Positions 27,906 to 37,306 of a stretch of DNA of 64,000 nucleotides are shown piece after piece. Positions within the stretch are counted from its first letter, which is position 1. Every line of letters begins with the position of its first letter. This DNA comes from Solirubrobacter deserti (GTDB taxonomy: Bacteria; Actinomycetota; Thermoleophilia; Solirubrobacterales; Solirubrobacteraceae): NCBI RefSeq assembly GCF_027587175.1, contig NZ_JAPCID010000002.1:62001-126000 (forward strand). Direction: 5' to 3'. Under the pieces are notes generated by a model. That model made no database searches. It was not told the DNA's origin and worked only from the letters and a program-made list of their open reading frames with translations. The translations under genes were made by a program, and so were the position numbers.

Positions 27906-28445
27906 ATGGAGAGAAATTTCTCCGGCCTCTTCAACCGCCGGGTCGGGCCGCTCGGCGCGCTGGTGATCGTGGCCGTCGGGATCGCGCTCACGGTCGCGGT
28001 CGCGCAGCTGCTCCCCGAGCGTGACGAACCGGAGACCGCCGCCACGCCCACGCCCACCGCCACGCCGTGCAAGGCGCTCGACCCGCCGTACGGTAAGCCG
28101 CCGCAGGACCTCACCTACGATCCGGTGGACGCCGCGACGCGCGCGCAGACCGTCGAGGCGCTGCACCCGGAGGAGGGTGGCGGGAAGGTGGACGTGCGCG
28201 AGGTGCGCCAGGGCGGCGTCGTGGTCGGGCGCATCGTCGGGGTGACCAGCCGGGACCCGACGAAGTACGCCGCCCGGCTGATCGCGAGCGCGGACGGCGA
28301 GCTCGAGCGCGGGACGGGCTACGCGATCCTGCCGCTCGAGAGCGGCGCGCGCGTCGCGATCGGCGTGAAGGGGTGCCGCACGGTCCTGGTCAATGCCCGG
28401 GACACGGACGGCACCCGCCTCCTCGCTGCTGCGATCTTCGGTTAG
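27906..28445 (+). CDS. Small membrane-anchored protein of unknown function
   Basis: 179 residues from the ATG at 27906 (MERNFSGLFNRRVGP). One transmembrane helix, LGALVIVAVGIALTVAVAQL (about residues 15-34), is followed by a short Thr/Pro linker (ATPTPTATP) and a ~130-residue exported or cytosolic domain with TRAQTVEALHPEEGGGKVDV and GYAILPLESGARVAIGVKGC. I do not recognise the family. A TATAGA box at 27872-27877 could be its -10. Its stop overlaps the stop of the convergent phosphatase gene by 4 bp. Confidence 0.75.
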   Translation: MERNFSGLFNRRVGPLGALVIVAVGIALTVAVAQLLPERDEPETAATPTPTATPCKALDPPYGKPPQDLTYDPVDAATRAQTVEALHPEEGGGKVDVREVRQGGVVVGRIVGVTSRDPTKYAARLIASADGELERGTGYAILPLESGARVAIGVKGCRTVLVNARDTDGTRLLAAAIFG

Positions 28446-29866
28446 AGCGCCTTCTCGTCGCGGCCGTCGAAGCCGCCCCAGATGGCGAACGTCAAGCCCG
28501 CCTTGCTGTCCGGCTGCGAAGTCTCGGTCTCGCCCAGCGCCAGGCGGTCGCCCTGCTGGTTGAGGAAGAACGTCTTGCCGTCCGGGCTGAAGCAGCCACC
28601 GCAGAACTCGGTGGTGTTGAGCACGGCTTTGGCGAAGTCGTAGATCAGGCCGTTCTTCGTGACGCCGCGGACGTACTGCTCGTTGCTGGAGTCCTCCTGC
28701 AGGAAGACGTCACCAGTGTCCGGGACGATCACCAGGTTGTCCGGGTTCTCGAGGTCCTGCAGGTCGGTCGATTCGTAGATGAGCTTGAGCTCGCCGCCCC
28801 ACTGGCCCTTGGGCGTGTACTGCCACAGCTGGCCGAGGCGGGCGTCGCCGCCGGTGGTGCAGTCGAAGTAGACGCTGTTGCCGGCGGTCCAGATGCCCTC
28901 GGTGCGATCGAAGACCATCGCGCCCTTGCTCTGGGCCTCCTTGCGGACCGTGTCGTCGAGCGGGTTGGGCTCCTCGATGCGGACCCACTCGACCGGGTAG
29001 GTCTCGCCCGGGTTGGCGGTGTTGCCGTTGAGGTTCGGACGACCCTTGACGGCGAGTGCCCACAGCGTGCCGCCGAACGTCGCCAGGTCGCCGGCCTCCT
29101 TCGGCTCACGCTCCGGGATGAAGCGGTAGAAGCACGCGTCGCCGCGGTCCTCGGTCTCGTACAGCGAGCCCTTCAGCCACGCGACCGCCTCGTGCGAGAA
29201 GCGGCCGGCGTCGAGGATCGGCTGCGGCGTGACGGGGCCGTTGGCAGCCGCGTCGATTTCGAAGCAGTACCCGTGCGGGACGCCCGTGCCCGGCGCGACG
29301 TTGTTCTCGGCCGAGCCGTAGTTGAAGATCTCCTCGCACGTGATCCACGTGCCCCAGGGCGTCTCGCCGCCGGCGCAGTTGGTGTGCGTGCCGCCGAGGA
29401 CCGGGAACACCGACTCGAGCCGGCGGTCCTTGCTCACGACGAGCTTGGTGTTGCCGCCGCGGACAGCGACGTCCGGGTCGTAGCGCTTGCCGGTGGGCAC
29501 CGGGACGGTGACCTCGCCGGTGCGCGAGCGGTTCTCGTGGTTGCGGATGAGCACGGTCGTGCCGCCCGGGCCCGCGTAGGCGCCCATGCCGTCGAAGATG
29601 CCCGGCGTCGGCAGGCCGTTGCGCATCGGCGCGCCCGCGCGGTTGATCAGGCGGTACTTGAAGCCGACGGGTAGCTGCAGGTAGACCTTGCCGCTGTCCT
29701 GCTCGGGCGTCGGCCGCAGCGGGCCGTAGCCGGCGGCCTTGGGCCGCTTCTTGTCCTGCTTGGTCTTCGCGGCAAACGCCGTGATCGGCCCACCCAGCGC
29801 GTACGCGGTAGCTGCCGCTCCTGCGGTCCCGGCCACAAATGTGCGCCGGTTGACGTCCGTTGCCAT
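28442..29866 (-). CDS. PhoX-like (DUF839) phosphatase with Tat-type signal
   Basis: 474 residues. The N-terminus NRRTFVAGTAGAAATAYALG has the paired Arg and hydrophobic stretch of a Tat signal. The body has DUF839/PhoX landmarks: VLIRNHENRS, CAGGETPWGTWITCEE, GRFSHEAVAW, YFDCTTGGDARLGQLWQYTP, NLVIVPDTGDVFLQEDS and CFSPDGKTFFLNQQGDR. PhoX enzymes are calcium- and iron-dependent alkaline phosphatases acting outside the membrane; many DUF839 proteins have not been tested. An SD (GGAGGG) precedes the ATG at 29866. No phosphate-regulation site was recognised. Confidence 0.88.
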   Translation of the reverse strand: MATDVNRRTFVAGTAGAAATAYALGGPITAFAAKTKQDKKRPKAAGYGPLRPTPEQDSGKVYLQLPVGFKYRLINRAGAPMRNGLPTPGIFDGMGAYAGPGGTTVLIRNHENRSRTGEVTVPVPTGKRYDPDVAVRGGNTKLVVSKDRRLESVFPVLGGTHTNCAGGETPWGTWITCEEIFNYGSAENNVAPGTGVPHGYCFEIDAAANGPVTPQPILDAGRFSHEAVAWLKGSLYETEDRGDACFYRFIPEREPKEAGDLATFGGTLWALAVKGRPNLNGNTANPGETYPVEWVRIEEPNPLDDTVRKEAQSKGAMVFDRTEGIWTAGNSVYFDCTTGGDARLGQLWQYTPKGQWGGELKLIYESTDLQDLENPDNLVIVPDTGDVFLQEDSSNEQYVRGVTKNGLIYDFAKAVLNTTEFCGGCFSPDGKTFFLNQQGDRLALGETETSQPDSKAGLTFAIWGGFDGRDEKAL

Positions 29867-29994
29867 GGTGCTTCCCTCCGGTTGGTGGCTGGCAATCGGA
29901 CGTCTATCGGTCCAATGACCCTCGAGTTGTCAACGAGTTGTGAGACTACGGTCAGTAGTAGTTGATCGAGGCCGTATCTTCCCGCTTCGTGAAC

Positions 29995-30819
29995 ATGCGG
30001 GACGGGTACGCACATCTGCCGCAGTCGACGCCTCGGGTCTCGCGGCGGGACCTGCTCCGGCTCGGCCGTGGGCCGTTGTTCCGGGATGACATCGACTACG
30101 ACGGCGCCGCGCTGCGCGTGCTGCAGGAGTGGTCGAGCAGCGACCGCGCGGCGCTGCTGCGCGCGCTGGAACCCGTCGCGTCGGCGCTTGTCGAGTGCGC
30201 GGGCGTCCAGCCCGGTTGGCGGGTGCTGGACGCGGCCGCCGGCGACGGCAACGTCGCGCTGGCCGCGGTCGCCGCGGGCGCGGAGGTGGAGGCGTGCGAC
30301 GTGTCGCCCGAGATGGTCGCGCGCGGTCGGGCGCGCGTCGCCGGCGCGGCGCGCTTCTCGCTCGCCGACGTGCAGGCGCTCACGTACCCCGACGGGTCCT
30401 TCGACGCGGTCATCTCGGCGTTCGGGTTCGCGCTGGCGCCACGCGCGCTGCGGACGGCGCGCGAGCTCGTGCGCGTGTGCAAGCCGGGCGGCGTGGTGGC
30501 GCTGGCCGCCTGGTGCCCGCGCGGGCTTCCCGGCGAGTTGTTCGAGCATCTGCCGCGCCCGACCGGCGTCGTCTCCCCCGGGATGTGGGGCGTCGAGGAC
30601 CGCGTGCGCACGCGGCTCGAGCCGCTGCTCGACGACCTCGTGATCCGCACGCGCGCCGTGTCGCTCGAGTTCGACACGGCGGACGCGCTGTTCGCGCAGC
30701 TGACCGACGACGAGCACGCGCGGCCCGCGTTCGACCGCTTGCTCGCGTCGTGCAACGACCGCCCGCCGTCCGCGGTGGTCAGCGGGCGCTACGTGCTCGT
30801 CACCGGGGTGCGAGCCTGA
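29995..30819 (+). CDS. Class I SAM-dependent methyltransferase
   Basis: 274 residues from the ATG at 29995; an in-frame GTG at 29989 lies 8 nt after TATCTT (29975-29980) and is an alternative. The SAM-binding motif I is VLDAAAGDGNVALAAVAAG, followed by EACDVSPEMVARGRARV, DVQALTYPDGSFDAVISAFG (motif II/III region) and LVRVCKPGGVVALAAWCP. It is a UbiE/methyltransferase-11 type protein; the substrate is unknown. An N-terminal basic segment SRRDLLRLGRGPLF precedes the fold. The 3' end overlaps that of the convergent bpX6-like gene by 20 bp. Confidence 0.87.
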   Translation: MRDGYAHLPQSTPRVSRRDLLRLGRGPLFRDDIDYDGAALRVLQEWSSSDRAALLRALEPVASALVECAGVQPGWRVLDAAAGDGNVALAAVAAGAEVEACDVSPEMVARGRARVAGAARFSLADVQALTYPDGSFDAVISAFGFALAPRALRTARELVRVCKPGGVVALAAWCPRGLPGELFEHLPRPTGVVSPGMWGVEDRVRTRLEPLLDDLVIRTRAVSLEFDTADALFAQLTDDEHARPAFDRLLASCNDRPPSAVVSGRYVLVTGVRA

Positions 30820-33199
30820 GGCGGGCGAGCAGCTCGTCGTTGGTCAGGTCGACGGCGAGCACGCGGCCGTCCGTGCTGAACGCGGTCGCGACGTCCCCGA
30901 AGACGCGCAAGCGCACGCCGTCGGCTTCGGGGAACTCGAGCGTGGCGCGGGCGACCTCGACCCGTCCGCCCGTGATCAGCGCGTAGCGATCGCCGCTGAC
31001 GGCGACCGCGCTCGGGCCGTCGAGCGGCCGGCCGTCACGCGGGCCGGGGTCGGTGCGCAGGTGGTCGCCCTCGATCCAGACGACGCGCCCACCCGCGGTC
31101 GTCTGCGCGTCCGGCGCCCACTCGTCGCTCTGCAGGTCCCGCTGCTCCAACGCGCGCGCCGGCATCCGCCACGTCCAGCGCTCGATGCTGCGCTCTCCGG
31201 GGCGCCCCTCGAGCGGGGTGTCGACGATCGCCGACAGCGACGTGGCCGTGCGCGCGAGGTGCCTGACCTCGGTGCGCTGGTCGAGCTCGGACCACGCCGT
31301 GCGCGGCGGCGCGTGCGTGAGGTCGACGCCCTCGATGCCCTCGTGCGCGGCGATCACGATCGCGCCGTCGAACGTGTCCAGGAAGCGGTAGCCGGCCAGT
31401 GCGGCGACGTGCGACAGGCGCCGCGTCGTCAGATCGAGGTGACGGACCTGCGCGACCGACTCGCCGTGCGCGACGACGAGCGCCGACGTCCCGTGGTCGG
31501 CGGGGATCAGCTGGTCGGCGGGCGTGTCCGCCCAGCGCGCGAGCTCGCGCCCGTCGGGGCGCAGCAGCCGGACCCCGAGCGCGCCGTGGGCGACCAGCAC
31601 GCCCGCGGGCAGCAGCACGGCGTCGCGCAGCTCGAGCGCGCCGCGGTCCGCCGGCGCCTCGAAGTGCACGTTCCCGCCAGGCTGGCGGCCGGCCCGGAAG
31701 ACGGGCAGGTCGGCGCGCAGCAGCGGGTCGGCCCGTTCGCGCAGCGCCTCGAACAGCGCCCGGCCGGAGTGGGTCGTGCGCAGCTCGCCGGTGGCGCCCT
31801 CGCGCAACACGGCGCGCAGCGCGGCGCTCGCGAGCCGCCGGTCCGCGAGCGGGTCGGCCGCGGGATGGTCGGCGAGGCCTTCGAGGAGCGCAAGCCGCAC
31901 GGCGGCGCCGGACGGGCGCGGCGCCAGCAGCGCGAGCGCCTCCTCCGTCGTGGGCGTGTCGGGCCTCCAGGCCAGCGCGAGCGCGAGCGCGGTCGCTCCG
32001 GGCGCGCCGCCGAGCTCGCGCAGCGCAGCCAGGTCCGGGCCGATCTGCTCGCGCAGGAGCGGGTCGGGCCAGGCGGCGTCGATGGCGGCGCGGTGGTCGC
32101 CGCGTTCGCGCTCGGCTTCGACCCAGGCCTCCCGGAGGTCGCGGGCGAGGTTCGCGTTCTCGACGCGTTGCAGCGCCGAGTACCAGGCGCCGCGCTCGCG
32201 CGCGAGGGCGATGGCGCGTTCGCGGCGGCCGGCGCGCCACCAGAGCGAGACCGCGAGCGCGGGCACGAGGTCGCGGGCCTCGGCCAGGCGCGCCGCGAGC
32301 GCGAAGCGGCGGTGGCGCTCGAGCAGCGCGACGGCGTCGTAGGGCGCGTGCAGCAGGTCGGAGTGCACGAAGGCGGCGCGCTCGATCTGGTCCGCGTACT
32401 CGAGCTCCTTGGCGGCCTTCAGGTACAGCTGGCGCAGCAGGTCGCCGATCGAGTCGGGCCACGGGACCGCGCCGCCGCCTCCGCCGAGGTGGTCGCTCGG
32501 CCGCAGCTCGCCCTCGCGGCGGCCGGGGAGGCGGAGCGAGAGCCACTCGGCCCCGGCGCCGCCGAGCGCGATCGCGTCGCGCAGCGCGTTCTCGTAGTCG
32601 CCCGTCTCGAACGCGCGCGTGAGCTTGTCCAGGTACTCCTTGTGACGGCGCCCGACTACGCCCGCCGCGGGCGAGCGCAGGACGAGCCGCGCGAACCAGC
32701 CCCGCCTGCGCGTTCCAGCCTTGGCGGCTTCGAACAGGCGCTCGGTCTGCTCCCCCGCGCTGGCGAGCGTCGCGACCCCGCGCAGGTCGAGCTCCTCCGG
32801 CGGCTCCGGCCGGACGACGGTCACCGGCACGGGCGGCGCGTCGAGCGGGCGCAGCGCCACGACGGGCGGCAGCTCCAGCCACGCCGACGGGTCCAGCCGC
32901 GGCAGCGCGTCGACGTCGTGGTGCTGCGTGCGGCCGTGGCGAAGCTCGACGAGCCCGCTTCCCGGCTCGTCCGAGCCGGCGCGCAAGGTCGTGCCTTCGC
33001 GCAGCACGGGCAGCCCGGGCGCGCGCTCGGCGCGGACCGTCACCGGCGCCGCGAGCAGGACCAGCCAGCGGCCGTCCGGCAGCGCGCGCAGCGACGCGCC
33101 CGCCGCCCACGCGGCCAGCACGCGTGCGCGCGCCGCGGGCTCGCCGATGACCGGCACGTCGAGGATGTAGCCGGCCGCCTCGACCGTCCCGCGCATCAT
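30800..33199 (-). CDS. Large bpX6-like beta-propeller protein of a MoxR-vWA ternary system
   Basis: 799 residues from the ATG at 33199, which overlaps the vWA gene stop. The N-terminal ~170 residues look like the bpX6 domain of MoxR-vWA systems (MMRGTVEAAGYILDVPVIGE). About residues 170-520 are alanine-rich helical repeats with conserved Trp, such as LVPALAVSLWWRAGRRERAI. The last ~280 residues form beta-propeller blades: LLPAGVLVAHGALGVRLLRP, GYRFLDTFDGAIVIAAHEG and SAVAVSGDRYALITGGRVEV. No signal peptide or catalytic motif is visible. In the described ternary systems such a protein is the variable, possibly target-recognising part. The bpX6 assignment is from memory, not a search. Confidence 0.7.
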   Translation of the reverse strand: MMRGTVEAAGYILDVPVIGEPAARARVLAAWAAGASLRALPDGRWLVLLAAPVTVRAERAPGLPVLREGTTLRAGSDEPGSGLVELRHGRTQHHDVDALPRLDPSAWLELPPVVALRPLDAPPVPVTVVRPEPPEELDLRGVATLASAGEQTERLFEAAKAGTRRRGWFARLVLRSPAAGVVGRRHKEYLDKLTRAFETGDYENALRDAIALGGAGAEWLSLRLPGRREGELRPSDHLGGGGGAVPWPDSIGDLLRQLYLKAAKELEYADQIERAAFVHSDLLHAPYDAVALLERHRRFALAARLAEARDLVPALAVSLWWRAGRRERAIALARERGAWYSALQRVENANLARDLREAWVEAERERGDHRAAIDAAWPDPLLREQIGPDLAALRELGGAPGATALALALAWRPDTPTTEEALALLAPRPSGAAVRLALLEGLADHPAADPLADRRLASAALRAVLREGATGELRTTHSGRALFEALRERADPLLRADLPVFRAGRQPGGNVHFEAPADRGALELRDAVLLPAGVLVAHGALGVRLLRPDGRELARWADTPADQLIPADHGTSALVVAHGESVAQVRHLDLTTRRLSHVAALAGYRFLDTFDGAIVIAAHEGIEGVDLTHAPPRTAWSELDQRTEVRHLARTATSLSAIVDTPLEGRPGERSIERWTWRMPARALEQRDLQSDEWAPDAQTTAGGRVVWIEGDHLRTDPGPRDGRPLDGPSAVAVSGDRYALITGGRVEVARATLEFPEADGVRLRVFGDVATAFSTDGRVLAVDLTNDELLARLRLAPR

Positions 33200-34851
33200 C
33201 CGGCGCGGACCTCGACCGGCGGGTCGCTGGAGCCGTACTCGATGACCTCGACCAGTTCGGGCGAGCGCTGCACCGCCAGCAGCGGCAGGCGCGGGTGCAG
33301 CGCCCAGTCGAGCCCCGGACCGGACCAGCCGCCGACCGGCGTGGCGGACGTGGGCGTGCGCAGCCAGACGGTGTCGGACGCGTCGAGCGTGACCAGGCCC
33401 TGCGCCGCGGCGATGTAGAGCCGGCCCAGCACGGTGTCGTCCGCCGGCACCGGAATCGCCTCCGTCCGGAACCGGTAGTCGGCGAGCTGCCAGACGCCCC
33501 CGTCCTCCCACGCGCTCCAGCTCTCCCCGGCCAGTACGGCGCCGGTCGACCTGCCGAGATCCCGGCCGCCGTAGAGCAGGAGGCGCTCGCTTACGCGGTG
33601 GAAGGTGTACGGCGAGTCGAGCGCCGGGCCCGGGCCGACCGCGACCACGTCGTCCTCGCGGCTCGCCCGCGCGTGCGTGCTCAGCCGCCACCATGCGTCG
33701 CCGATCCGGCACAGCACGCTGCCGCTGTCGAAGAACAGCGGCGGCAGCACGTCGAGATCCACTGTCCCGGCGTCGAGGTCGAGATCCTCGAGCGGGACCT
33801 CGATCTGCTCCACGCGCGCGAGCCGCTTGCCGACGACCTCGCAGCGCAGCCGGTCCCCGTCCAGCAGCAGCACGACGAGGCGGCGGCTGTAGAAGGTGGC
33901 GGACACGACCGGATGCGCGAAGCGGTGCAGCCGCGGCCGGGCCTCGCCGCCGGTGGCGGTAGTCGGCATCGGCAGCACCAGGAGCTCCTCCGGTTCCTCG
34001 CCACGGAGCAGCAGGCGCCGCTCCGACGCCGGGAACGTCGGGCAGCGCAGCGCGCCCATCGCCACCGATCTCCGCTCGCGCGGGACCCGGCGCAGCGCCG
34101 CGCCGCGCAGCGCGGCCACCGACACCGGGCCGCCCGGGAGCGCCAGCGTCGTCGCGCGGCCCTCGAACCGGACCTCGACCGCGGTCACGCCCTCCGCGTC
34201 CCACGCCGACTCGCGCGTGTGCAGCAGCAGCGGGAGCTTGCGCCCGGCTTCGGCGAGCGCGTCGCCGGCGAGCACCCACAGCTCGTCGGCCGCGTCGAGC
34301 GTGCTGAGCCGCTCCTCCAGTTCGGCCGCCGTCGGCGCGAGCGGCTCACGCGCGGCGCGCCACGCCGCGTACAGCTCGGGCAGCCCGCCCGCGTGCCAGC
34401 CCGTGCCGCCGGAGACGCCGACGACGAGCTCGGTGCCGCGCGTGCGCGCCCGCCGGTGCAGGACGATCAGCGCCGCCAGCTGCACCAGCCGAGCCGCGCC
34501 GAGCTGGTCCGGGCCGACGTCGCAGAACACCGCGACGCGCCCTTCCGGCGCCGACGCGCGGAACGCGGGCGCGACGTACAGCAGCTCGTTGTTCGCCGCG
34601 CGGCGGATGAACTCGAGTGGCAGCTCCTCCGCCAGCAACCACTCGGACAGCAGCAACCGCTCGGGATGGCCGCGCAGCGAGAGCCCGCCGTAGCCATCGG
34701 GGACGCCGGTGCGCGCGTCGGCCGCGTCGTGGCGGCGCACGAGCGCGTCCAGGCGCCGCACGAGCGGCCCGATGTGCAGCGCCGCATCGACCGTGAGAAA
34801 GCCGAGCGACTCCGCCCAGGGCCGCAGCGCGGGTGGCAGCTCCGTCGTCAC
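33196..34851 (-). CDS. vWA-like/beta-propeller component of a MoxR ternary system
   Basis: 551 residues from a GTG at 34851. The N-terminal third carries a vWA-like Rossmann region: EGRVAVFCDVGPDQLGAARL, then a helix VQLAALIVLHRRA and TELVVGVSGGTGW. The MIDAS-type DxSxS appears as DVGPD, so metal binding may be lost. The rest is beta-propeller-like: GALRCPTFPASERRLLLRGE, FYSRRLVVLLLDGDRLRCEV, LGRLYIAAAQGLVTLDAS and HPRLPLLAVQRSPELVEVIE. The start overlaps the bpX5-like gene (GTGA) and the end overlaps the bpX6-like gene (ATGA), so all are translated together. Confidence 0.68.
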   Translation of the reverse strand: MTTELPPALRPWAESLGFLTVDAALHIGPLVRRLDALVRRHDAADARTGVPDGYGGLSLRGHPERLLLSEWLLAEELPLEFIRRAANNELLYVAPAFRASAPEGRVAVFCDVGPDQLGAARLVQLAALIVLHRRARTRGTELVVGVSGGTGWHAGGLPELYAAWRAAREPLAPTAAELEERLSTLDAADELWVLAGDALAEAGRKLPLLLHTRESAWDAEGVTAVEVRFEGRATTLALPGGPVSVAALRGAALRRVPRERRSVAMGALRCPTFPASERRLLLRGEEPEELLVLPMPTTATGGEARPRLHRFAHPVVSATFYSRRLVVLLLDGDRLRCEVVGKRLARVEQIEVPLEDLDLDAGTVDLDVLPPLFFDSGSVLCRIGDAWWRLSTHARASREDDVVAVGPGPALDSPYTFHRVSERLLLYGGRDLGRSTGAVLAGESWSAWEDGGVWQLADYRFRTEAIPVPADDTVLGRLYIAAAQGLVTLDASDTVWLRTPTSATPVGGWSGPGLDWALHPRLPLLAVQRSPELVEVIEYGSSDPPVEVRAG

Positions 34852-35228
34852 AGCGCGGCGGTGTTCATCGGCCGCGGGCCACGCAGCACGACCTCGTCGA
34901 GCACGACGATCAGCCCGTCGCCGAGCGCGCCGGCGACGAGCTCGACCGCGGCGCCGCCGCCCACCCCCTCGATGTCCAGCGCGCGCGTGGTCGGGAGCAA
35001 CAGCGGCCCGTCCGCGCCCACGTAGACGCAGCCGTCGGCCCACGGAAGGTCGTTGTACCCGCCGAGCACGACGAGCCAGCCGTCGCCCTGCGCCGCGCGC
35101 AGCCGCACGCCGGCCTCGAGCGCGCGACGGGCGGCCCCCGTCAGCCCGCGCAGTGCGGGGCCGGTCGCGACCACGCCGACCGCGGGTAGCGGGGGCTCAC
35201 GCGGCCGGAGCCTGATCGTCCAGGACAT
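34848..35228 (-). CDS. Small bpX5-like protein of a MoxR ternary system
   Basis: 126 residues from the ATG at 35228, which overlaps the 3' end of the MoxR gene by 32 bp. A beta-alpha pattern is seen: VGVVATGPALRGLTGAARRA, WLVVLGGYNDLPWADGCVYV and LIVVLDEVVLRGPRPMN. Size and position match the bpX5 family that accompanies MoxR and vWA proteins in ternary systems; I cannot verify this by search. No catalytic residues are evident. It ends in a GTGA overlap with the vWA-like gene, so the stoichiometry of the three proteins is probably linked. Confidence 0.62.
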   Translation of the reverse strand: MSWTIRLRPREPPLPAVGVVATGPALRGLTGAARRALEAGVRLRAAQGDGWLVVLGGYNDLPWADGCVYVGADGPLLLPTTRALDIEGVGGGAAVELVAGALGDGLIVVLDEVVLRGPRPMNTAAL

Positions 35229-36321
35229 GGGTCAGGCGGGCGCGGACGAGCGCGAGGTCCTCGGGCATCTCGCTGTGGGCGAAGCCGGCGTCGATCTCGC
35301 GCAGCACGGCCTCGACGCGCAGCCGGTCGTCGGGCGTGTCGCCGACGGCCTCCAGCAGCTCACGGCCGGTCGCGGTCAGGCGCGCGGCCCGGGCGGTACG
35401 ACCGCGGGAGAACTGCTCGGCGGCGTGCACGAGCGCCTCGCTGCGCGCATCGGCGATCAGGTCGGCCAGGACTTCCTGGGCGGTCGCCTGGTCGTCGGCG
35501 GTCGGGGCGATCATCGGCAGCACCCAGAGGTCGGCGGGCGTGGCGGCGGACCGGCCGTCGAGCGCGGCGGCGGCCGCGATCAGGCGCTGGGAACGGACCG
35601 CGCGGCGGTCGCTGAGCTCGATCCCCGCGCCGCGCAGGCGCCGCACGGCCTGGCCGACCACCGGCTGGACGGCGCGCAGGTCACACGCGCGGGCGGCTTC
35701 GGCCAGTGCGTCGAGCGCGTCCAGCGGGCGCTCAGTAGCCGGCTTCGGCCGCTCGCCCGCCCAGCCGACCTCCAGCAGCTCCTCGAGCCGCATGTCCGCG
35801 ACGCCGTCGAGGAAGACACGAGCCAGGAAGCGGTCCGCGAACGCGGCCAGCGCGGGATCGTCCGGCAGCGCGTTGCTCGCCCCTACGCACACGCGCAGCG
35901 CAACCGGCAGCGCGGTGCGCCCGCGCCGGAACACGCGCTCGTTGAGCATCCCGAGCAGCGTGTTGAGGATCGCGGTCGAGCCGAGGAAGACCTCGTCGAG
36001 GAACGCGACCTCGGCCTCGGGCAGCATCCCGGCCGTCTCGACCTCCACGACGCCCTCGCGCAGGCGGCGCAGGTCGATCGGGCCGAACAGCTCGTTGGGC
36101 TCGGTGAAGCGCCCGACCAGGTACTCGAAGTAGCGCCCGCCGAGCTGTTCGGCGACGCGCCGGACCGCCTCGGACTTGCCCGTTCCCGGTGGCCCGATGA
36201 CGAGCAGGTGCTCGCCGGCGACCGCGCACAGCACGACCGCCTCCGCGATCGACTCACGATCGACGAGACCCTTCTGCGCCCGCCCGATCGCGGTTCGAAC
36301 CCGTTTGACCTCAACTTCGAT
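35197..36321 (-). CDS. MoxR-type AAA+ ATPase (apparent ATC start)
   Basis: About 374 residues if started at the ATC at 36321. The Walker A is LLVIGPPGTGKSEAVRRVAE, followed by EPNELFGPIDL, the Walker B AEVAFLDEVFLGSTAILNTL, and GASNALPDDPALAAFADRFL with the sensor and Arg-finger region. A helical lid and a C-terminal extension rich in Ala and Arg follow. Before the first conventional start (GTG at 36234) there are 29 codons of normal MoxR N-terminus (VRTAIGRAQKGLVDRESIAE), so the true start is further upstream; no ATG, GTG or TTG occurs there. MoxR ATPases remodel vWA partners, and the three following genes supply such partners. Confidence 0.88.
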   Translation of the reverse strand: MEVEVKRVRTAIGRAQKGLVDRESIAEAVVLCAVAGEHLLVIGPPGTGKSEAVRRVAEQLGGRYFEYLVGRFTEPNELFGPIDLRRLREGVVEVETAGMLPEAEVAFLDEVFLGSTAILNTLLGMLNERVFRRGRTALPVALRVCVGASNALPDDPALAAFADRFLARVFLDGVADMRLEELLEVGWAGERPKPATERPLDALDALAEAARACDLRAVQPVVGQAVRRLRGAGIELSDRRAVRSQRLIAAAAALDGRSAATPADLWVLPMIAPTADDQATAQEVLADLIADARSEALVHAAEQFSRGRTARAARLTATGRELLEAVGDTPDDRLRVEAVLREIDAGFAHSEMPEDLALVRARLTHVLDDQAPAA

Positions 36322-36328
36322 GCCCGCG

Positions 36329-36334
36329 ACCTTA
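36329..36334 (-). promoter_or_regulatory. TAAGGT before the MoxR ATC: -10 box or Shine-Dalgarno
   Basis: TAAGGT ends 7 nt before ATC and overlaps the TAA stop of plsC. It can be read as a -10 for a leaderless transcript, or its AAGG as a ribosome-binding site in a plsC-moxR operon. Confidence 0.35.
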
Positions 36335-37306
36335 GCGACGAGCCGCGACCCACGCGTCCAATTCGGCCCACCACTGGAACAGCCAGTCGATGCGCGCGTC
36401 GGTGCCCGCGGGGATCTCGTCCGCGCGCACCAACCACAGCTCGACCTCGATCGTCTTACGGTCGGGCAGCGTCCGCCACGTGTCGCGCAGCCCTTCCGGG
36501 AAGCCGGCGTGCGCGAAGAAGACGACGTCCGCGTCGGGCGCGCCCTCGAGCGCCGCCAGCGCCCCGCCGGGCCGGGGCGCGCCGAGGTGACCCATCGCCG
36601 CCGCGCGCTTGGCCTCGCGGTGGTGGCCGCGGTGCAGGAGCCGCTCGATCGCGCGCTTGCGCCGCTCGGCGGTGACGTTGCCGCCCTCGGGGAAGATCAG
36701 GACCGCGTCCTCGGCGCCCAGCCCGTGGCTCATCACCTTGATCTCCTGCTCGATGTCCCCGCCGCGCGGGTCCACGAAGCGGTTCGGCAGCCGCCGGCCG
36801 ATGATGTCGATCAGCGGGTCCAGCGAGAGCAGCTGGTGCATGACGATCCGCGGCCGCCGCCGGTGGCGCCGCAGCAGGTGGTCGAGCACGAGCAGCGAGT
36901 CGCCCTCGCCCGAGTGGATGCTGAGCACGACCAACGGCCGCTGGCGCGCGGACAGCGCGGCCTCGGCCGCCGCCGACCCGTGCATGACGAGCTTCACGCG
37001 CGCGACCCGCAGCGCCGCCCGCGCGATCCCGCCGACGAACCAGCGCATCACGGCGTAGTGCGGCCCGCGCGCGCCGCCGCGCCCGGTCGCCCACAGCAGC
37101 AGGCAGGCGGCGACGGCCGTGACGTGCCCGACGGCGTAGGCGAGCACGATCGTGAGCAGCCGCAGCGGCCGCCGCCCGCCCAGCAGCGGGGAGAGCAGCG
37201 CCGCGAGCGCGGTCAGGACGGGCGACGCGGCGATCAGCGCCAGCTCGACGGCGAGCACGAGCGGCGCGACCGTGACGCGGCGCACGCGCGGCGGCGGGAC
37301 GCGCAT
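36332..37306 (-). CDS. PlsC-family 1-acyl-glycerol-phosphate acyltransferase
   Basis: 324 residues from the ATG at 37306 (MRVPPPRVRRVTVAPLVLAV). Two or three N-terminal hydrophobic helices anchor it in the membrane. The acyltransferase motif I is SIHSGEGDSLLVLDHLL, an HX4D active site. Motif III is IFPEGGNVTAERR, and a VDPRGGDIEQEI segment lies between them. It should acylate lysophosphatidate or a similar acceptor. Its TAA stop is 10 bp before the MoxR start on the same strand, so cotranscription with the ternary cassette is possible. A strong hairpin separates it from the patatin gene upstream. Confidence 0.85.
   Translation of the reverse strand: MRVPPPRVRRVTVAPLVLAVELALIAASPVLTALAALLSPLLGGRRPLRLLTIVLAYAVGHVTAVAACLLLWATGRGGARGPHYAVMRWFVGGIARAALRVARVKLVMHGSAAAEAALSARQRPLVVLSIHSGEGDSLLVLDHLLRRHRRRPRIVMHQLLSLDPLIDIIGRRLPNRFVDPRGGDIEQEIKVMSHGLGAEDAVLIFPEGGNVTAERRKRAIERLLHRGHHREAKRAAAMGHLGAPRPGGALAALEGAPDADVVFFAHAGFPEGLRDTWRTLPDRKTIEVELWLVRADEIPAGTDARIDWLFQWWAELDAWVAARR

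Follow-up and report, generated by a model that had tools for sequence, protein, structure and literature searches.

Four adjacent genes in the window (the whole stretch of 64,000 nucleotides from Solirubrobacter deserti that was analysed) form a beta-propeller-containing MoxR-vWA ternary system, as described by Kaur et al. 2020 (eLife 9:e52696), of the bpX5/bpX6 subtype. The genes are predicted to encode an ATP-driven protein-remodelling machine, one of a family that has been predicted in bacteria. What is new here is that the ATPase is conserved, whereas the propeller of the vWA-like partner protein varies fast. At the level of sequence, this pattern suggests that the motor is kept and that the putative target-recognition module is swappable. 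The best explanation, to which a probability of about 0.5 is given, is that of a horizontally acquired bpX5/bpX6-subtype machine in which a MoxR ring would remodel a target caught by the propeller of its partner.

Table 1. Features of the cassette and of the insertion that carries it.
Feature	Position in the window	Strand	Basis and remarks
bpMoxR AAA+ ATPase	35197..36321	-	374 aa from the non-canonical ATC at 36321; PF20030, 2.2e-81
bpX5 small protein	34848..35228	-	126 aa; PF19921, 7.2e-9; 32 bp overlap with MoxR
vWA-like/propeller protein	33196..34851	-	551 aa; AF model and motif conservation
bpX6 protein	30800..33199	-	799 aa; PF19922, 7.1e-14, residues 2-144
Insertion, 7.9 kb	28443..36330		DNA comparison with congeners G157, G309 and G400
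PhoX-like gene	28442-29866	-	within the insertion
SAM methyltransferase	29962-30819	+	within the insertion

Cassette layout and family assignment

The cassette consists of four minus-strand open reading frames that together span 30800-36321 and overlap by 32 bp (35197-35228), 4 bp (34848-34851) and 4 bp (33196-33199). An earlier sequence-only reading of this DNA had proposed the same frames, positions and overlaps and the 799-aa length of the last protein, all of which are borne out, with the MoxR start codon corrected. That reading was also right in naming a MoxR, a bpX5, a vWA-propeller and a bpX6 protein; bpMoxR, bpX5 and bpX6 were matched in Pfam. Its "small beta-alpha protein" can be placed by profile match in the bpX5 family (PF19921), its "helical-repeat/propeller" description of the 799-residue protein agrees with the AF model, and the absence of a classic toxin that it had noted in the four genes holds family-wide. 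The 551-aa protein gave no Pfam match even at E 10. Membership of the ternary systems is assigned because of the three Pfam matches, together with the propeller and the conserved motif in this fourth protein. With Pfam E-values to 2e-81 and a gene order that is kept across several phyla, the cassette lies far above chance.

The MoxR protein contains Walker A (GPPGTGKS), Walker B (FLDE), a sensor-1 Asn and a DR-finger, and its catalytic residues are invariant in 57 alignment rows. The P-loop reads GTGKS in the window and GTAKS in 54 of the 57 rows; a GXXXTAKS P-loop has been described as frequent but not universal in these systems (Kaur et al. 2020, eLife 9:e52696), and the deviation does not decide membership. 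The PF20030 score of the window MoxR is 272 bits, to be read against a loose cut-off of 27 bits that E. coli proteins also pass. RavA is the nearest solved structure (2.9e-39), and in NCBIfam the protein gave only a sub-threshold RavA-like match, its 145 bits not reaching the equivalog cut-off of 681. PADLOC returned weak ATPase matches for MoxR only (best mad8, 6.6e-7) and none for the other three proteins.

The vWA-like/propeller, bpX6 and bpX5 proteins

In the AF model of the vWA-like/propeller protein (pLDDT 90.4), a helical N domain (residues 1-90) is followed by a Rossmann-like domain (91-250) and a beta-propeller (263-551). The best VIA matches of the propeller are Hsv2/Atg18 propellers (4v16, Z 15.2, rmsd 4.1, 254 residues). 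The model supports the propeller that had been proposed for this protein, whereas the vWA fold proposed with it was not confirmed by sequence profiles: a Pfam match to a vWA domain was found in 0 of 57 members, and the PDB sequence profile was also empty. Alignment of the middle domain to VWA_2 and CoxE with hhalign gave no match, but a vWA-vWA control reached only 72%. Fold searches with this protein were filled by propeller matches, and the strand/helix order of the middle domain in the AF model is compatible with vWA.

The Rossmann-like domain carries the motif D111-x-G-P-x-Q-x-G-x-x-R121. Its residues are nearly or fully invariant in the alignment: G113, G118 and R121 occur in 57/57 rows, D111 and Q116 in 54/57 and P114 in 53/57. 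The DVGPD stretch had been taken for a degenerate MIDAS that had lost metal dependence. This is only partly correct: the stretch belongs to a motif that is nearly invariant in the family and does not reflect decay of the window copy. The vWA domains of these systems have been described as divergent, with the metal-binding Asp sometimes missing (Kaur et al. 2020, eLife 9:e52696).

The AF model of bpX6 (pLDDT 89.2) shows an alpha/beta N domain (residues 1-110), helical repeats (139-497) and a second beta-propeller (505-797), which matches WD40 proteins with Z 17.1 and rmsd 3.8 over 256 residues. A hydropathy scan predicted a hydrophobic segment or hairpin in 36 of 74 bpX6 relatives. In the window copy, the same kind of scan found no membrane hairpin; its one weak peak, at residue 528, falls within the propeller. 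A membrane segment is typical of the third component but not universal (Kaur et al. 2020, eLife 9:e52696). About half of the relatives likewise have none in the linker, so its absence from the window copy does not decide membership. The bpX5 family was matched in 57 of 58 rows (the window and its syntenic relatives). Two relationships inside the cassette were considered and rejected: the eye-catching idea that bpX5 is a separately encoded version of the N domain of bpX6 (hhalign probability 0.8%) and homology between the two propellers, which is unsupported (hhalign 9%).

A four-gene unit across relatives

The scan for relatives, with one genome per species, yielded at least 80 relatives, and those listed come from Actinomycetota, Myxococcota, Pseudomonadota, Acidobacteriota and other groups. 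The four genes are conserved together in a fixed order: of the 80 relatives listed, 76 have bpX5, 75 the vWA protein and 73 bpX6, with order and strand unchanged, and absent genes lie beyond a contig end except at one locus. At this locus (L040:9839-11416, Planosporangium thailandense), MoxR matches to residue 269 only and bpX5, the vWA protein and bpX6 are absent though the contig continues, so this MoxR is likely a broken copy. Two records carry titles at odds with their sequences and are probably mislabelled: L033 (Klebsiella pneumoniae MAG), whose MoxR clusters near Actinomycetota sequences, and L083 (Comamonas), which is placed among Myxococcus and has flanks in common with them.

Apart from Myxococcaceae synteny, no flanking family recurs near the cassette among the relatives listed. 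Among 108 flanking or inserted proteins, called with a simple codon-model gene caller, no family exceeds three members, and about 10 of the 108 genes gave PADLOC matches, which are mixed and repeat no specific system. The unit is four genes with no known effector, because the flanks hold no recurring family. Inserts of about 1.6-5 kb separate MoxR from bpX5 at loci of Corallococcus, Myxococcus and Archangium (L027, L059, L062, L065, L069, L084 and L085), and two of these inserts hold a gene that is weakly globin-like. The idea that the cassette carries recurrent cargo was considered and rejected, as the genes inserted in Corallococcus (weak globin-like), in Archangium and in Minicystis (PIG-L deacetylase) are each confined to their lineage.

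Conservation gradient and tandem arrays

Mean pairwise identity falls from 67.5% in the MoxR AAA part to 46% in the N domain of the vWA protein and 38.5% in the bpX6 helical repeats. It is 34.7% in the vWA-like domain, 34.2% in bpX5, 31.6% in the bpX6 N domain, 26.8% in the bpX6 propeller and 21.7% in the gappy bpX6 linker. The least conserved domain is the vWA-protein propeller, at 19.1%. In 17 close pairs, the highest dN belongs in nearly all cases to one of the propellers; dN was used and not omega, as dS is rough in GC-rich pairs. The contrast can be seen within single pairs: in Pyxidicoccus/Myxococcus (L035/L036), MoxR is 97% identical and the vWA propeller 53%, and in L069/L071 the upstream flank DNA is 91% identical and the propeller 75%. 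The fast change of the propellers could also reflect relaxed constraint.

Between bpX5 and bpX6, Massilia rubra carries five tandem vWA/propeller genes (L093:11511-19714) and M. mucilaginosa two (L092:11526-14938). In M. rubra, copy b consists of a propeller only and the N domain of copy a is incomplete. DNA identity between copies d and e is 92-100% over the first 360 bp and mostly 50-75% beyond that. One tentative and rather doubtful interpretation of these arrays is that the vWA-like protein acts as a constant-variable receptor, with a fixed N-terminal part that docks to the motor and an exchangeable propeller; the copies of an array would then share one MoxR ATPase, and those of M. rubra would have homogenised constant ends and diversified propellers.

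Origin in this genome and distribution

Junction alignments place the window positions ~28.44 kb and ~36.33 kb next to each other in three congeners, to within about 35 bp, at a site between two convergent genes. The flanks of the insertion share 73-86% DNA identity with the congeners, and the cassette is therefore not contamination. At the insertion ends, no direct repeat of at least 8 bp was found, only two inverted 8-mers, and there is no mobility gene inside. The methyltransferase that lies within the insertion has matches in the genus at only ~40-44% identity, and there is a 20 bp overlap between its end and the bpX6 stop. A MoxR of the bpMoxR type was found in 0 of 5 congeners, and among 398 genomes of the host class a single one has bpX6. 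In the MoxR tree, the window sequence is sister to 13 Actinomycetes sequences, in a clade with support 100/100. By comparative sequence criteria, the cassette was probably acquired horizontally; it lies within a clean insertion, which may have arrived as one piece.

Elsewhere, bpX6 was found in 15 of 199 Pseudomonas species, in 24 of 70 genomes of the genus of locus L025 and in 60 of 96 genomes of the family of the Myxococcus locus. All 100 positive genomes have one bpX6 match each. In the Myxococcus family, where the system is common and single-copy with flanks in common, it has more the character of a stable accessory trait than of a mobile gene for defence.

Proposed mechanism and alternatives

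In the proposed mechanism, MoxR would assemble into a ring powered by ATP and dock onto the conserved part of its partner, made up of the helical N-terminal and the vWA-like domain, and the propeller of this partner would catch a target protein. The bpX6 protein would serve as a scaffold, its helical repeats and second propeller holding the complex, and bpX5 would be a small coupling subunit. Hydrolysis of ATP would then lead to remodelling or release of the captured target. As the cassette is not accompanied by an effector gene, its output is probably this remodelling step. The least certain step is the nature of the target: rapid propeller change would fit recognition of changing, possibly foreign, proteins. 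The notion that the propellers bind a target which MoxR remodels had already been put forward in the sequence-only reading; it fits the conservation pattern and is kept here as a proposal.

An anti-phage or inter-bacterial conflict system, in which a sensor-switch would stop an invader with no need of a classic toxin, overlaps with this mechanism and names its target. Such a role was proposed by Kaur et al. 2020 (eLife 9:e52696), and the patchy spread, the horizontal gain in this genome, and the fast-evolving propellers with their tandem duplicates agree with it. However, the flanks are not consistently associated with known defence genes, every positive genome has a single bpX6 match, and this class shows one of the weakest of the reported associations with multicellularity (44/118, p=0.0094; Kaur et al. 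2020, eLife 9:e52696). In addition, the literature searched gave no paper reporting an experimental test of these systems. On balance, a conflict role is conceivable but stands at clearly less than even odds.

The main alternative would be an endogenous role like that of RavA-ViaA, in which the system serves as an assembly or stress chaperone for a membrane or respiratory complex; this seems possible but rather unlikely. RavA is the nearest solved structure, and two reports (PMC9489729, PMC10585395) describe RavA-ViaA as acting on respiratory complexes and at the inner membrane. The hydrophobic segments predicted in about half of the bpX6 relatives and the stable presence in the Myxococcus family also favour a chaperone. 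Against this, a linked respiratory or membrane gene is never recurrent, nearly all relatives of the host are without the system, and the membrane hairpin is missing in the window bpX6. Moreover, the variability of the partner propeller is too great for a single conserved client.

It is improbable that the cassette is decaying in this genome, with expression impaired because the insertion took the MoxR start codon. From the stop that precedes it at 36697 down to GTG 36234, the MoxR frame has no ATG, GTG or TTG; this GTG is the sole canonical start ahead of Walker A and would cost the protein 29 aa immediately before this motif. In most relatives, MoxR starts about four residues further upstream than 36321, and the equivalent site here is the insertion junction. 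Nevertheless, all four frames are open, their overlaps and motifs are intact, and an AAGG lies 8 nt upstream of the codon at 36321, an ATC that may be used as the MoxR start. ATC is a rare start in table 11. That the patatin and acyltransferase encoded upstream serve the system as effectors is barely credible: they lie on the same strand and MoxR starts 11 bp past the acyltransferase stop, but both are outside the insertion, the acyltransferase is present in 6/6 genomes of the genus, neither recurs beside the relatives, and the empty site in the congeners largely ruled the pair out.

The proposed remodelling machine is directly testable, since the conservation gradient, the four-gene unit and the Massilia arrays single out one domain and one ATPase residue. 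If the propeller is indeed a diversifying recognition module, this would represent a receptor-like design driven by a MoxR ring.

Comparison with known systems

The RavA-ViaA pair of E. coli is also a MoxR-type ATPase with a vWA partner, but the MoxR described here scores far under the RavA equivalog cut-off. Neither bpX proteins nor propellers are known to be part of that pair. The VMAP and iSTAND ternary systems share the MoxR plus vWA core and differ in their third component and effectors, and none of their families was matched here.

The closest counterparts are the systems of Kaur et al. 2020 (eLife 9:e52696; Pfam bpMoxR, bpX0-bpX6). The shared features are bpMoxR, bpX5 and bpX6, a vWA-like protein with a C-terminal propeller, a third component built from an N domain, helical repeats and a propeller, and the absence of a conventional effector. 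In contrast, the host here groups with Actinomycetota, outside the main phyla of 2020, the P-loop is GTGKS and not GTAKS, and bpX6 is without a membrane segment. The N-terminal region of the third component was stressed as variable in that work, whereas here the vWA propeller is more variable. The Bacteroidota subtype, bpMoxR-bpX2-(bpX0/vWA/bpX1)-bpX3, has the same order and positional roles (MoxR, small protein, vWA-propeller protein and third component), with bpX2 replacing bpX5, bpX3 replacing bpX6 and additional bpX0 and bpX1 domains. A Hymenobacter plasmid carries this subtype as bpMoxR-bpX2-bpX0/bpX1-bpX3 (L013:9968-17171), in parallel order, and the two subtypes therefore share one layout.
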